A stretch of 36,647 nt of DNA, from contig JAFVXO010000039.1 in NCBI GenBank assembly GCA_017501105.1, forward strand, positions 1 through 36,647, given 5' to 3'. Source of the stretch: Clostridia bacterium (lineage in GTDB: Bacteria > Bacillota > Clostridia > RGIG7378). The notes under the pieces were generated by a model. It was not told the DNA's origin. It did no database searches and saw only the letters and a program-made list of their open reading frames with translations. Every line of letters begins with the position of its first letter. Within the stretch, counting starts at the first letter, position 1. The position numbers and the translations under genes were made by a program. Positions 4,941 to 29,952 of this stretch are shown piece by piece.

Positions 4941-4962
4941 CTAGAAATAAACGGAGGTAATT

Positions 4963-5793
4963 ATGTTTTATATAGGTTGTCATTTGTCTGCATCCAATGG
5001 CTACTTGGCTATGGCCAAAACTGCCGAATCTATAGGAGCGAATACGTTTCAGTTCTTCACCCGTAATCCCAGAGGAGGCCAGGCAAAGGCCATAGATCCC
5101 AGAGATACTGAGGCCTTTGGCAAATACGCCAAGGAACTGGCGTTTGGTCCCATATTGGCCCATGCGCCATATACACTCAATCCATGTTCTGCAGATCCCA
5201 GAGTACGGGAGTTTGCCAATATGGTATTTACAGATGATTTGCAAAGGTTAGAGTATACCCCAGGTGCCATGTACAATTTCCATCCCGGCAGTCATGTGGG
5301 GCAGGGTGTAGATGTAGGTATAGGACTTATTGTGGATCAACTTAACCAGGTTTTGCGCCCGGAGCAGACTACTACTGTGTTGCTCGAGACCATGGCGGGC
5401 AAGGGGTCCGAGATTGGCGGCAACTTCCGGGAGCTAAGAGAGATAATCGACGGAGTAGAGTTGCAGGACAAGATGGGAGTATGCCTGGACACATGCCATG
5501 TAAATGATGCGGGTTACGATGTAGTTGGAGATCTGGATGGTGTGCTCACTGAGTTTGACAATGTGGTGGGACTCCATAGACTCAAGGCTATCCATATCAA
5601 TGACTCTATGAATCCCCTGGGAGCTCACAAGGACCGCCACCAGAAGATTGGCCAGGGATACATCGGAACGGAGGCCTTTGCCAGAATTATTAATCACCCG
5701 GCACTAAGGGATTTGCCCTTCTATCTGGAAACTCCCAACGAGATCCAAGGGTATGCAGATGAAATTGCCATGCTTAAGGCGCTGCGCAGTTAG
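4963..5793 (+). CDS. nfo: Deoxyribonuclease IV (AP endonuclease, EndoIV family)
   Basis: Base-excision-repair enzyme that cuts the phosphodiester bond 5' of abasic sites, using a trinuclear zinc centre in a TIM barrel. The 276-aa length is typical. All family zinc-ligand motifs are present in order: [51 protein letters not shown] and ETPNE. These correspond to the ligands described for E. coli Nfo. The start follows ACGGAGGTAATT. It stands alone between the GH18 terminator and the convergent dus operon. The 137-bp gap to dus has no convincing strong terminator; a 4-bp GGCC/GGCC hairpin is the best seen. Confidence 0.95.
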
Positions 5794-18086: not shown

Positions 18087-19271
18087 ATGAAGAGACTATT
18101 TACTTCCGAATCTGTAACAGAAGGACATCCCGACAAGATATGTGATCAGCTGTCAGATGCAGTTCTTGATGCGATTTTGACAGAGGATAAGACGGCCCGT
18201 GTTGCCTGCGAGACAATGGCATCTACAGGAACCATCGTTGTGGTGGGAGAGGTTACCACTTCTGCATATGTAGATATACAGTCCATTGTTCGCAAGACAG
18301 TAGTTGACATTGGCTATGATCGTGCAAAGTATGGGTTTGATGGTCACACCTGTGGCATTTTGACATCCATTCATGAGCAGTCTCCCGACATTGCAATGGG
18401 CGTAGACAAGGCCAAGGAGCAGCGCGATGGAGATGCAGACAGATATTCAGAGACAGGTGCAGGAGACCAGGGCATGATGTTCGGATATGCCTGCAACGAG
18501 ACTCCCACATATATGCCCATGACAGCATACTACGCTCACCGTCTGTGCATGAAACTGGCTGAGACACGAAAGAACGGCCAGTGTGCATGGATGAGACCTG
18601 ACGGCAAATCCCAGGTTACAGTGGAGTACGACGAACAGGACAAGCCTGTACGTATCGACACAGTGCTGATTTCTACGCAGCATTCTCCCGACGTTACCCA
18701 GGAGTTCATTCGACAGGAGATCATTGACAAGGTTATCAATCAGGTTATTCCCGCAGAGCTCATGGATGCAGACACCAGAATATTGGTCAACCCCACAGGA
18801 CAGTTTGTCCAGGGCGGTCCCGGCGCAGATTCCGGACTTACAGGACGCAAGATTATCGTAGACACATACGGTGGTTGCGGAAGACACGGCGGCGGTGCAT
18901 TTTCTGGTAAGGACCCCACCAAGGTGGACCGTTCAGCAGCATATGCAGCCAGACATGCAGCCAAGAATATCGTTGCTGCAGGACTGGCATCCAAGTGCGA
19001 GATCCAGCTGGCATATGCCATCGGCGTGGCTAAGCCCGTATCTATCAGAGTGGACACATTTGGCACAGGAGTTAGGTCCGATGAGGATATTGCAGACATG
19101 GTGGCACAGCTCTTCGACATGAGACCGGCTGCTATCATCGACAGATTGGACCTTCGCAGGCCTATTTACAAGAAAACTGCCGCCTACGGACACTTTGGCA
19201 GAGAGGATGCAGATTTTACATGGGAATACCTGGATATGGTCGATTCTATTAAGCAGTATTTCAACATATAA
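18087..19271 (+). CDS. metK: S-adenosylmethionine synthase
   Basis: A 394-aa cytosolic enzyme that makes SAM from methionine and ATP. Motifs are [13 protein letters not shown] at the N-terminus, the ATP-binding [13 protein letters not shown], and the glycine-rich loop [28 protein letters not shown] near the C-terminus is also typical. The start follows TTTAGGGGAATAT. Length and all key residues are normal. fhs begins 24 nt later with its own ribosome site, so both are probably one transcript. This links SAM supply with one-carbon folate charging. No SAM-I-type riboswitch is visible upstream. Confidence 0.97.
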
Positions 19272-19295: not shown

Positions 19296-20966
19296 ATGTA
19301 CAAGTCAGATATTGAGATTGCTCAGTCAATTGAAATGAAACCTATTGGCGAGATTGCCCAGGTAGCAGGTATCGAGGATCGCTATTTGGAGCAGTATGGC
19401 AGATACAAGGCCAAGATTGATCTCAAGCTCCTAAAGGATAGCTCCCGACAGGAGGGCAAGCTGATATTGGTTACTGCTATTACTCCAACTCCCGCGGGAG
19501 AGGGCAAGACAACTACCACCATCGGATTGGCAGACGGACTCAAGCAGTTGGGCAAGAACGTAGTTGTTGCTCTGAGAGAGCCTTCTCTAGGGCCTGTGTT
19601 CGGAGTTAAGGGTGGAGCCGCTGGAGGCGGATACGCACAGGTAGTTCCCATGGAGGACATCAACCTCCACTTTACAGGTGACTTCCATGCAATTGGAGCC
19701 GCAAACAACCTGCTGGCAGCTATGTTGGACAACCACATCTTCCAGGGCAACCAGCTGGGCATCGATCCTGAGCGCATAACATGGCACCGCTGCGTGGATA
19801 TGAACGACAGACAGCTCAGATTTGTACAGGATGGATTGGGCGGAGGCAAGAACGGCGTTCCCAGATCAGACAGCTACGATATTACAGTTGCATCTGAGAT
19901 TATGGCAGTGCTCTGTTTGTCCACATCCATCTCCGACCTTAAGGAAAAGCTTTCCAACATTATTGTAGGATATACATATGACAACAAGCCCGTTACCTGC
20001 GGACAGCTAAAGGCTGCAGGAGCCATGACAGCACTGCTCAAGGACGCCATCAAGCCCAACCTGGTACAGACTCTGGAGGGTACACCGGCCATTGTTCACG
20101 GTGGACCTTTCGCAAATATTGCCCACGGTTGCAACTCCATAATGGCAACCAAGATGGCTATGAAGTTGGGCGACTATGCAGTAACAGAGGCAGGCTTTGG
20201 CGCAGATCTGGGAGCGGAGAAGTTCCTGGACATCAAGTGCCGCAAGGCAGGACTCACCCCCTCTGCTGTAGTTGTAGTAGCTACTGTGCGTGCACTTAAG
20301 ATGCACGGAGGACTTGCCAAGACAGAATTGGGTAACGAGGATTTGGCAGCACTCAAGGCCGGCATTCCCAACCTGCTGCGCCATGTATCTAACATCAAGA
20401 ACGTATACAAGCTGCCATCGGTTGTGGCAGTTAATAGGTTCCCCACAGACACAGATGCTGAAATCGAGCTGATTATCTCCGAGTGCCGCAAGCTGGGCGT
20501 AAACGTGGTTCTCTCCACAGTTTGGGCTGACGGAGGCAAGGGTGGCATAGAGTTGGCAGCTGAGGTGGTCAGACTCTGCGAACAGCCTAACGACTTTACT
20601 TTCAGCTATGAGCTGGACTGTTCCATCAAGGACAAGATAAATGCAATTGTGACCAAGGTGTACGGTGGCGACGGAGTAGAGTACACTCCAGAGGCAGAGG
20701 AGCAGATTGCCAAGCTTACCGAAATGGGATTTGATAATGTCCCCGTATGTATTGCCAAGACACAGTATAGCTTCTCCGACGACCAGACCAAGCTGGGAGC
20801 TCCCACAGGATTTAAGGTAACTGTCCGCAACGTCAGAGTTTCTGCAGGAGCTGGTTTTGTGGTTGTATTGACAGGTACAATTCTCACAATGCCCGGCCTG
20901 CCCAAGAGCCCCGCTGCAGAGCGCATCGACGTATCTGAGGATGGAGTTATTTCAGGACTGTTCTAA
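19296..20966 (+). CDS. fhs: Formate--tetrahydrofolate ligase
   Basis: A 556-aa enzyme that joins formate to tetrahydrofolate with ATP, giving 10-formyl-THF for purine synthesis or the acetogenic methyl branch. The P-loop [18 protein letters not shown] is near residue 65. [22 protein letters not shown] follows, then [22 protein letters not shown]. The C-terminal [25 protein letters not shown] is also diagnostic. The start follows CAGGGGGACGCAAA. The gene is full length and has a strong terminator. No folD, mthfs or acs genes are in the window, so its presence does not by itself prove acetogenesis. Confidence 0.97.
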
Positions 20967-26256: not shown

Positions 26257-26541
26257 GTGAGATTTATGCTTTTTGGGATGATGGGAGAGAGGGGGTCTGC
26301 CACAGTTGAGGCTGTAATAGTCAGCGTGGTGATTTTGGCTTGTAGTTTGTGGGGGTATACGGGGTTGCTTAGCCAGGTAAAAACCTTGCTAAGCGTTGCG
26401 GCTAACGGAGATGGTAGGGATGCTGAGTTTACGGAGCCATGTAAGTTCTGCCACGCCCTGTACAAGGCAGATAAATTTGGTGATTTATTTTTGGAAGGCA
26501 TTGACTTGTTTGTAGACGAACTAAAGGGTAAGAACCAATGA
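26257..26541 (+). CDS. Short TadE/prepilin-like membrane protein
   Basis: A 94-aa protein starting with GTG, chosen because TTGGAGGA lies 6 nt upstream; an ATG three codons later is possible. The N-terminal RGSATVEAVIVSVVILACSLWGY has the G-x-x-T-V-E-A form of TadE-type pilins and pseudopilins: a glycine-adjacent cut site, glutamate near +5, then a hydrophobic helix. The rest is a short polar tail with one CxxC (CKFC). It overlaps the next gene by 4 nt (ATGA). It is probably membrane-inserted and pilin-like. The tail is too short for a full TadE. Confidence 0.65.
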   Translation: MRFMLFGMMGERGSATVEAVIVSVVILACSLWGYTGLLSQVKTLLSVAANGDGRDAEFTEPCKFCHALYKADKFGDLFLEGIDLFVDELKGKNQ

Positions 26542-27743
26542 ATCTGCTGACACGGAGAGACGGCACTGTGACGTTGTTTGCTACAGTAGTCATATTGCCT
26601 GTGGTGATAGTTGCACTGGTTGTGGCAGAGATTGGAGGAGGTGCACTGGAGACTGCCAGGCTCAGGTCCAGCTTGCTCAGGTATGTCATGTCTGTAGCTG
26701 CAGGATATGACCAGAATCTATTGTCCGATTATGGGCTATATGGCATAACTCGGGAACAATCCGGTTTTTGGGCTGGGGCAGAGATATCGCCGGACATTAC
26801 ACTGACTCAATCCTTGGCAGACAGCCAGGTGCTGGAGGACGCTATAGTTTCTGCGGGCATGGGCCTATGGGACTACGTGGCCGTAGAAAGGGTGGTCTCA
26901 AAGGTGATTACTCTAGGGGAGTATTTTGGCCTGGTAGGGGCAGAAGAAATGCTGGAGGATGCGTCAAAACATGCCGCTGAGATTACGGCCCAGGCAGCAG
27001 GAGAGATTATCCTACAGAATCTGCCTCACATAGATCTGGAGGAGATATTCGATGCGATTTGTAACATGGCATCTGCTCTGGGAGATAACTGGGTTGCAGT
27101 GGGTGGAGAGTGGCTATGGAATAATGGGGACAAGGGGTTATCTCTAAATTTCTCGGGAATTGTAGCAGAGGCAAAGTGCTGGATACGGGAATTTGTGCAC
27201 GCAGACCTGGTTGAAAGAGTACGGGAAGGAGTAGGATGTACCTCGTATATCCTTTTCTACATGACGGCATACAATCGAACATTAGATAGGCACAGTGTAT
27301 TAAGGAGCGCTGAGACAGAGTATTGCATATTTGGGTATAACGTAGGATCTCTCAATATTATGGAGAGCTATCAGCGGATTTTTAAGATGCGACTGGCGAT
27401 CAATTTGGTGGACTATTTGATAAACACAGATATTCCGGAGATAGATACCAGGATTGTCTGTGCATGTATTTTAGCAGTGGTTGCCACATTGTCGGATGTG
27501 GTTTCCCTTATGGCAGGGGAAGCTGTTTCTCTGGCTCCTCATCTTGATATGGTAGATACCGATTATACGGATTATCTTGCTGTAATGCTGCTGACTACAA
27601 ATGGAACGCTATTACTTGCCAGGATAGGCGATATTATCAATATGAATTTGGCGACTAATAACCAGAGATCAGGCCTGGAGGACTACTTTACATGCATTAC
27701 GGCAACTATGGATAAAGAAAAATTTACATATGAGTACAAATAA
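26538..27743 (+). CDS. DUF5702-like / TadG-like membrane-anchored protein
   Basis: A 401-aa protein. The N-terminus, RRDGTVTLFATVVILPVVIVALVVAEIGGGALETARLR, is a single hydrophobic anchor typical of TadG/DUF5702 proteins. The next block, SLLRYVMSVAAGYDQNLLSDYGLYGIT, matches the characteristic 'AxYD..LL..YGLY' of DUF5702. The remainder is mostly helical and outside, with a hydrophobic segment near 300-325 (IVCACILAVVATLSDVVSLM). In related bacteria such proteins lie within Tad/Flp-type loci between TadE-like genes. It overlaps both neighbours (4 and 14 nt), so the three are translationally coupled. Confidence 0.72.
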   Translation: MNLLTRRDGTVTLFATVVILPVVIVALVVAEIGGGALETARLRSSLLRYVMSVAAGYDQNLLSDYGLYGITREQSGFWAGAEISPDITLTQSLADSQVLEDAIVSAGMGLWDYVAVERVVSKVITLGEYFGLVGAEEMLEDASKHAAEITAQAAGEIILQNLPHIDLEEIFDAICNMASALGDNWVAVGGEWLWNNGDKGLSLNFSGIVAEAKCWIREFVHADLVERVREGVGCTSYILFYMTAYNRTLDRHSVLRSAETEYCIFGYNVGSLNIMESYQRIFKMRLAINLVDYLINTDIPEIDTRIVCACILAVVATLSDVVSLMAGEAVSLAPHLDMVDTDYTDYLAVMLLTTNGTLLLARIGDIINMNLATNNQRSGLEDYFTCITATMDKEKFTYEYK

Positions 27744-28425
27744 TAGAGGCAGTATTACTGTGGAGGCAGCAATTGTGGTGCCAATAGTGTTAATCGTGAT
27801 AGTGTCTGTGACCTTGTCGGTGTTTGGAATAACTGTTTCAATTGCCCTTACAAACCTAACAGCTGATGTGACTAACACGCTTGCAGCAAGGTCCACGCTC
27901 TACAATATGCGGGGGACAAACTCTACAGACAGGAGCATAGTAGAGGCTACAGTAGATGAGTGTCTCGGAGGAACAGTGCTGGAGCGGGACAGGATAGTTG
28001 TCAAAAGGGTAGTGCTTCCGTATGCAGGATCAGGAGAGACCATTGAGCTGTCACTGGAATATGACTTGGGGTTAAACGGATTTATGGGAGGACTCCTGAA
28101 CAATCCCGTATGTTTTGCACTACAGAGGGCCTGGATAGATCAGCGCATATCCGTAGAAGATATATTAGCTAAACTGGGATCACATGCATATCGATGGGCT
28201 ATGAGTACAGGCTATCCAGGGGTATTATCGGAAAATTCGCCAGACAGGGAGAGTATTGTCTGTGTAACAGATACAGGAAACAAATACCATAGGTCATGGT
28301 GTAACTGCCTTAGATATTCCTGCCAGGAGATAACTTTTGGTGAAGCGATTAAGAAGGGATATACCCCATGTGAATTTTGTGTACTTATGACTGCGGAAAT
28401 TATTGGTTATCCGTTACAAAAATGA
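27730..28425 (+). CDS. TadE-like protein with C-terminal KYHxxxC...PCxxC domain
   Basis: A 231-aa protein. NNRGSITVEAAIVVPIVLIVIVSVTLSVFG is a textbook TadE-type N-terminus. An outer domain of about 130 aa follows. The C-terminus, VCVTDTGNKYHRSWCNCLRYS...GYTPCEFC, is a four-ligand Cys/His motif resembling the Ada-type metal-binding module that caps many clostridial surface proteins. It may bind zinc outside the cell (inference). The start overlaps the preceding gene by 14 nt and its own ribosome site is weak, so coupled translation is likely. No tadA, tadB, tadC or prepilin peptidase is nearby. Confidence 0.75.
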   Translation: MSTNNRGSITVEAAIVVPIVLIVIVSVTLSVFGITVSIALTNLTADVTNTLAARSTLYNMRGTNSTDRSIVEATVDECLGGTVLERDRIVVKRVVLPYAGSGETIELSLEYDLGLNGFMGGLLNNPVCFALQRAWIDQRISVEDILAKLGSHAYRWAMSTGYPGVLSENSPDRESIVCVTDTGNKYHRSWCNCLRYSCQEITFGEAIKKGYTPCEFCVLMTAEIIGYPLQK

Positions 28426-28452: not shown

Positions 28453-28540
28453 ATAAAAAATATTTTTTCCTGTAGGCCCTGACTTATGGGGCTAGACACT
28501 ATATAGACGTCAATCGACTTTTTTTGCCAACATTCATTGG

Positions 28541-28568
28541 TTGTCAACAAAATTCTTGGTGTTATAAT
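28541..28568 (+). promoter_or_regulatory. Promoter of the MetH-like gene
   Basis: TTGTCA (28541-28546), a 16-nt spacer and consensus TATAAT (28563-28568). The expected RNA start (near 28575) coincides with the perfect hairpin GCACCA-TTCA-TGGTGC (28575-28590). Confidence 0.75.
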
Positions 28569-28621
28569 TGGGAAGCACCATTCATGGTGCGTATATAGAC
28601 ACAGATTTTTGGGGGATAGCC

Positions 28622-29905
28622 TTGAACATTTTACAGGCAATGAGAGAGAGAGTTTTATTGTACGATGGCGCCAAGAGCGCTTTTGTCGTTTCGCTATCTT
28701 CTGCCTCTGTAGATGTGCCGGATATCCACAATATCAGCAACCCCAGTGTAGTCAGAGAGGTCTACAGGACCTATTATCAGGCAGGCAGCGATTGTCTGCA
28801 GACCCTTACATACAACAGCAACCGAGTCAAACTCCACGAGTGCGGCATGGAGGACAAGCTCCGTGAGATTATCGACAGGAGTATTGGCCTTGCCAGAGAG
28901 GTGGTAGGCGACAAGTGCTATGTTATCGGTACTGCGGGCCCCCTTGGCAAGTTGTTGCGTCCCATCGGAGATTTGACAATCGAGAGAACATACGAATTGT
29001 TTGCAGAGCAATTGGCTTTGTTTGAGGAGTTCGGTGCAGATGCCATTCACTTGGATGGTTTCAAGAGTATGAAGGAGCTCAAGGTAGCTCTTATGGCAGC
29101 TAAGGAAAATACCAAGTTGCCTGTTATCTGCGGTGTCTCTGTAGAAAAGAACGGCAAGACTCTGATGGGCGAGGATATTTGCTCCATGGCGGTTACGATG
29201 AAGTCTCTGGGAGCAGATGTTATTTCCCTTAGTGATGGCGACGGAGCAGCATCTATGGTAAGAACCTGTGCAGCAGCAGCACAGAGCGGACAGATGCTTT
29301 GCGTAAGGCCCAATGCAGGCACCCCATATATTGTTGGCGACAGATTAGTCTCTCCAGACAGTGATGATGCCATCAGCCAGTTTTGCGAGGAATATATTCA
29401 CTCGGGAGCCAGATTAATTGGAGGCACATTTGGCACGTCTCCCAGGACTATTGAGATTATCAGGGAGACTCTGGGCAACTTATCTGTACCTGCTTGGACG
29501 ACCAATGATGACAGGCTGCATCCGTGGCTGACGGGAGGCAATTCCCGGGTGCGCATTGACAGAAGTTTCCATCCTCTGTCGGTACATGAGGTTATTGGAC
29601 CTGAGCCGGTTATTGATCTGGATGACATGTTCGATGTAATCAGGGAGATTGCCGGACGCAAGTGTGACGTTCTATATTTAGACGTAGATAAGGCTATGGA
29701 TGAGGAGCTGCCTATCGAGTATGTTCTCGGTGATATGCAGACATATATCAAGAGGCCAATTGTATTCAGGTCTTCCAACGCAGGAATGTTGGAGAAGGCT
29801 GTGCGCAGCTACAATGGCAGACCCGGTATAGTTACAGATAGCGATATTTCGGCTGGGATTGCTCGCAAGTACGGCTGTTTGGAGTTTTCTAACTCTCTTT
29901 GCTAA
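28622..29905 (+). CDS. MetH-like homocysteine methyltransferase-fold protein lacking zinc cysteines
   Basis: A 427-aa protein built as a homocysteine S-methyltransferase domain (about 1-290) followed by a truncated pterin-binding-like segment (about 310-425). The fold is recognisable from ERVLLYDGA (cf. ERIL-DGAMGTM), CYVIGTAGPLGKLLRP, GADAIHLDGF, LPVICGVSVEKNGKTLMGED, VRPNAGTP and the final LPIEYVLGDMQ...RPIVFRSSNAGMLEKAVRSYNGRPGIVTD. The catalytic zinc ligands are absent. The GLNC cysteine is replaced in ISLSDG (D205), and the vicinal GGCCGT pair reads GGTFGT (T269, F270). Methyltransfer by the usual mechanism is therefore unlikely. TTG at 28622 is preferred (GGGGGATAGCC upstream). ATG at 28640 is the alternative. 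Confidence 0.82.
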   Translation: MNILQAMRERVLLYDGAKSAFVVSLSSASVDVPDIHNISNPSVVREVYRTYYQAGSDCLQTLTYNSNRVKLHECGMEDKLREIIDRSIGLAREVVGDKCYVIGTAGPLGKLLRPIGDLTIERTYELFAEQLALFEEFGADAIHLDGFKSMKELKVALMAAKENTKLPVICGVSVEKNGKTLMGEDICSMAVTMKSLGADVISLSDGDGAASMVRTCAAAAQSGQMLCVRPNAGTPYIVGDRLVSPDSDDAISQFCEEYIHSGARLIGGTFGTSPRTIEIIRETLGNLSVPAWTTNDDRLHPWLTGGNSRVRIDRSFHPLSVHEVIGPEPVIDLDDMFDVIREIAGRKCDVLYLDVDKAMDEELPIEYVLGDMQTYIKRPIVFRSSNAGMLEKAVRSYNGRPGIVTDSDISAGIARKYGCLEFSNSLC

Positions 29906-29925: not shown

Positions 29926-29952
29926 AGGACGCGATAATTACGTGTCCTTTTA
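29926..29952 (+). terminator. Terminator after the MetH-like gene
   Basis: AGGACGCG pairs with CGTGTCCT around ATAATTA (one G-T pair), followed by TTTAT. Confidence 0.75.

Follow-up and report, generated by a model that had tools for sequence, protein, structure and literature searches.

What defines MetH, BHMT and MmuM is a zinc ion, held by three cysteines, that activates a thiolate; what, then, might a member of this family be for when all three cysteines are gone? A gene in a 36,647-nucleotide stretch of DNA (the window) from a gut bacterium of the Clostridia raises this question. The initial annotation described a clear homocysteine S-methyltransferase fold stripped of its zinc ligands, encoded by an intact frame with a consensus promoter and a terminator, in a window that also carries metK and fhs. 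The genetic elements are all there: metK at 18087-19271, fhs at 19296-20966, and an unbroken frame of 427 codons that runs from a TTG at 28622 to a stop codon ending at 29905, with a promoter and a terminator that are also present in a second species of the same genus. The features of the locus are these:

28541 to 28568, plus strand: sigma-70 promoter, TTGTCA-16-TATAAT with an extended -10 (TG), 11 of 12 matches
28575 to 28590, plus strand: 5'-end hairpin, GCACCA-TTCA-TGGTGC, with weak folding z-scores (-0.6, -1.4)
28622 to 29905, plus strand: zinc-less short homocysteine-methyltransferase-like protein, 427 aa, TTG start
28622 to 29479, plus strand: (beta/alpha)8 homocysteine-methyltransferase-like barrel, residues ~1-286 (PF02574; Foldseek)
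29234 to 29236, 29426 to 29428 and 29429 to 29431, plus strand: former zinc positions D205, T269 and F270 (triad alignment)
29489 to 29902, plus strand: linker and first half of a pterin-binding-type domain, residues ~290-427 (hhalign)
29926 to 29948, plus strand: intrinsic terminator, kept in the sister species

With a promoter and a terminator of its own, the gene forms a single-gene unit. An alternative upstream TTG at 28568 overlaps the -10 box, and the sister-species orthologue (locus L033) begins with a GTG at the residue equivalent to the TTG start of the window protein. The promoter block, TTGTCAACAAAA..CTTGGTGTTATAATTGG, is kept in the sister species, where a hairpin of other sequence (CCACTTT..AAAGTGG, L033 ~4959-4975) occupies the equivalent position just past the -10 box; the paired hairpins are at most suggestive of a 5'-end stabiliser or an attenuation element. 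No riboswitch or T-box was found at the gene by Rfam search. The block ACACTATATARACG (28494-28510), roughly 35-50 bases ahead of the -35 box, is conserved in both species within an intergenic region that has otherwise diverged between them; it is possibly a regulator site. DUF5702 and TadE-like genes (26538-28425) precede the zinc-less gene, as they do in the sister species, and in another genome (G158, locus L066) Tad-pilus genes directly precede a zinc-bearing homologue, a hint that the Tad-linked position reflects positional orthology.

The fold itself is as clear as had been claimed. PF02574 (S-methyl_trans) matches residues 25-283 with 139.7 bits against a curated cut-off of 22, which places the protein in the family. 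The closest protein in the PDB is T. maritima MetH, both by sequence (E 2.9e-44, residues 5-401) and by fold, its structures 3bol and 3bof coming first (E ~1e-24) when an AF2 model, whose confidence is modest (mean pLDDT 62.9, pTM 0.59), was run through Foldseek. Which kind of family member is it? The MetH equivalog TIGR02082 scores 98.6 bits against a cut-off of 1010.85, and the protein has half a pterin module and no B12 module of the MetH set. The bifunctional HMT/MTHFR model (PRK08645, NF006396) scores 201.8 bits against 453, and its match covers residues 1-288 only, stopping short of the C-terminal MTHFR domain that membership requires. The tail had been described as the end of a pterin-binding domain without its N-terminal part, but the reverse is the case: its ~138 residues are the first half of the domain, and it is the second half that is missing (hhalign against the MetH linker/pterin region, probability 99.3, E 2.5e-20, columns 11-158 of 299).

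How thoroughly has the active site been altered? D205, T269 and F270 stand where the three zinc cysteines would be, exactly as first reported, and the triad is Cys-Cys-Cys in all 83 other homologues, a set made up of Bacillota loci from class-wide and phylum-wide searches plus one homologue on an IMG/VR viral contig (L086, from a family-alignment scan), which also deepened the AF2 alignment. Among the loci fetched from those searches, which are the stronger matches, there is no further zinc-less homologue; the scan of genome contigs for close relatives returned the sister-species MAG only, and from these sequences zinc loss appears to be private to the window's genus. The orthologue in the sister species reads D-N-F. 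A conserved family with the same D, T and F residues had been proposed as a sign of new function, and such a family exists in a weak form: the D and the F are common to two species of one genus, but the sister species has N in place of T269.

The changes extend beyond the zinc ligands. The zinc-bearing set has 48 near-invariant positions, with conservation of 88% or more; both zinc-less proteins depart from it at 16 of these, at 12 of them with an identical residue in the two species, and keep the other 32. The changed positions lie mostly at active-site strand ends, in the zinc/homocysteine site, and include G19S, N62L/M, E145D, T146G, G202S, N204S, C205D, S206G, C269T/N and C270F; structural residues (D15, G16, G106-P107, P230-N-A-G, G267-G, G271, P274) are kept. 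The DGAMGTM segment is indeed altered, to DGAKSA, in the company of N204S, E145D, T146G and N62L. In published structures of MetH, three cysteines bind zinc, and the first of them lies where strand 6 ends; conserved carboxylates contact the amino group of homocysteine, and its carboxyl group is contacted by backbone amides from the point where the beta1-alpha1 extension begins (PMC539065). D15 and E145 probably correspond to these amino-group carboxylates; in the window protein, D15 is kept, and E145 and the DGxxGT backbone site are changed; the zinc cysteines at the end of beta6 and in the pair after beta8 are gone. Could ligands be placed elsewhere in the fold, as the initial annotation had asked? 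The cysteines common to both species (58, 99, 170, 187, 227, 255, 348, 419 and 427) were checked as substitutes, and none lies at the beta6 or beta8 strand ends. With 16 near-invariant positions changed and 32 kept, the pattern is one of coordinated dismantling of the zinc/homocysteine site on a preserved fold, not of scattered decay, and it is very likely, judging from these residues, that the protein would not activate homocysteine as a zinc thiolate and would have no zinc-dependent homocysteine methyltransferase activity.

The origin of the protein is clear from its relatives. Widespread in Bacillota is a clade of short (410-460 aa), zinc-bearing homocysteine methyltransferases (e.g. L034, L039-L042, L087 and L091), which share with the window protein the barrel, the half pterin-like tail and ~30-35% full-length identity; all of these carry NC[SG]...GG-CC-GT and the ETF glutamate, whereas in the window protein these read SDG...GG-TF-GT and LDGF. 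In a maximum-likelihood tree, the zinc-less pair is nested inside this clade with support 99/100, and common ancestry and the 410-460 aa architecture together make it a member. Because the zinc-bearing proteins have the same build, the half-pterin tail is ancestral; of the novelty initially claimed, the zinc loss stands and the odd tail does not. The stem leading to the pair measures 1.87 changes per site, versus 0.24 between the two species, and this burst of change was followed by strong purifying selection: the orthologues are 80% identical, with dS saturated and dN/dS <0.05. For the same species pair, thrS and ychF are 92% identical and other neighbours 42-67%, and the barrel of the zinc-less protein differs at 20.3% of positions versus 31.9% for the genus's own MetH (p=0.0016).

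Where does this constraint sit? For the one zinc-less pair, with 56-58 differences placed on the secondary-structure map of the same AF2 model, mouth and core (strands and beta-alpha loops) hold 52% of the differences versus 27-42% in 18 zinc-bearing pairs (p=0.005-0.009); the enzyme-like constraint pattern is thus gone. The catalytic face as a whole is no more conserved than the helices (20.0% versus 18.6% differences), a result that speaks against an active site simply retained. Relative to the zinc enzymes, the beta8-beta1-beta2 loops are under less constraint and the beta3-beta7 loops under more: only 4 of 51 beta3-beta7 positions differ, at a loop-difference share of 0.21 versus 0.58 (p=0.0017, for a split picked post hoc), and the beta4-beta6 loops are unchanged (0/19). 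On this model, constraint reads as having shifted across the barrel mouth, away from the zinc side (beta8-beta1-beta2) and towards the beta3-beta7 side, and the protein as one that gave up zinc and homocysteine and still uses one side of its mouth together with its outer surface.

The window genome also has a canonical MetH with zinc cysteines, in a metF/MetH-activation-like/metH set on contig C124, whose metH probably ends on contig C68. In two other genomes (G260 and G311), the short zinc-bearing form, which has neither cobalamin nor full folate modules, is the only PF02574 protein, and for that reason it may be the working homocysteine methyltransferase there; methionine synthase of the MetH type may exist in both genomes in a core or split form. 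Zinc-bearing short relatives often adjoin a DegS/DegU-like pair and an AMP-forming ligase, these neighbours being assigned by sequence and genomic pattern with no profile scan. The DegS/DegU-like pair is found beside the short HMT at L056, L059, L060, L064, L065, L067, L068, L069 and L071, from several Clostridia families, and many of these nine loci also have an AMP-forming acyl ligase. At L060, the order is HMT-DegS-DegU with gaps of a few bases only, and at L056 and L059, a 5-formyl-THF cyclo-ligase-like gene adjoins the short HMT. In both genomes of the window's genus, DegS is absent and the AMP-ligase is represented by weak paralogues only; the neighbourhood appears to be ancestral and missing from this genus.

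What, then, does the protein do? We favour, at a probability of roughly 0.55, a non-catalytic binding or regulatory role, which we rank ahead of new chemistry. The ancestor was a short (410-460 aa) zinc-dependent homocysteine methyltransferase that, in a lineage with a full canonical MetH, lost its Cys3-zinc site and homocysteine pocket; the altered protein would then have been fixed for another role, giving a genus-specific pseudo-methyltransferase. Another ligand or a protein partner would be bound by the mouth on its beta3-beta7 side, together with outer helices whose conservation is unusually high, with D145, G146, E184/D185, S204-D205-G206-D207 and R229-P-N231-A-G as proposed contact residues. 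The protein might thereby act as a sensor or regulatory subunit, most plausibly in one-carbon/methionine metabolism, the partner being a guess. The original suggestion of a zinc-less, non-decaying regulatory or ligand-binding derivative, or of new chemistry, is carried forward in part, with support from selection, from loss of the zinc and homocysteine sites and from the separate MetH. Against a binding or regulatory role, the tight beta3-beta7 loops would suit a new active site as well, the analysis brought up no partner, ligand or regulator site, and the gene has no companions.

A new zinc-free enzyme, which we consider rather unlikely, would have a carboxylate-rich pocket (D15, D145, D205, D207) in which a hard divalent metal, or an amine or other amino-acid-like substrate, might be bound. 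The new acidic residues are identical in both species, D15 and N231/G233 are retained, and the beta3-beta7 loops, beta4-beta6 above all, have scarcely changed; however, residue 269 varies between the species, the beta1/beta2/beta8 loops show weaker conservation than their counterparts in the zinc enzymes, mouth and core are as variable as the outer helices, and no operon partner points to a pathway. Could the protein still methylate homocysteine or another thiol, with other zinc ligands or none? This we think very improbable: the fold, D15 and nine cysteines are conserved in both species, but the homocysteine determinants E145, T146, N204 and G19 are gone, no new cysteine has appeared at the beta6/beta8 strand ends, and Cys170 and Cys227, because they are also present in relatives with a normal triad, are not new ligands. 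Slightest of all is the chance of a relaxed or decaying gene or an assembly artefact; the long stem branch would suit it, but the changes recur at the same place in an independent MAG, that of the sister species, the frame, promoter and terminator are intact, dN/dS is very low, and the within-genus rate is below that of MetH.

Annotation pipelines would label this gene a homocysteine methyltransferase, which is a warning. Ready controls for the role of the retired barrel are at hand in the zinc-bearing sister clade and in the canonical MetH that the same cell carries. As a tentative proposal, the homocysteine barrel may have been rebuilt, with a zinc-free beta3-beta7 site for either the regulatory sensing of a one-carbon/sulfur metabolite or the catalysis of a new reaction. 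We found no description of a zinc-less protein of the MetH/BHMT branch in the literature searched, which lay mostly outside subscription journals, and to our knowledge this is the first free-standing, selectively maintained member of that kind.

Among known systems, the N-terminal modules of T. maritima MetH (1q7m/3bof) are the best PDB match, by sequence and by fold; unlike them, the window protein has no equivalents of Cys207, Cys272 and Cys273, only half of the folate barrel and no cobalamin module. A parallel in history is the N-terminal barrel of MetE: after gene duplication, its zinc and homocysteine sites were obliterated and the fold was kept for other use (PMC539065). The window protein likewise has lost these sites on a kept fold, but the MetE barrel is fused to an intact one, whereas the window protein is free and of the MetH/BHMT branch; a conserved, free-standing zinc-less member means that this barrel, too, can be kept for another purpose. 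The MesB-like proteins of Chloroflexales, in which the zinc ligands are non-conserved (FSHG, YCDQ, YREQ) (PMC7857596), are, like the window protein, free-standing methionine-synthase homologues, but they belong to the MetE superfamily and the window protein to the MetH/BHMT branch.
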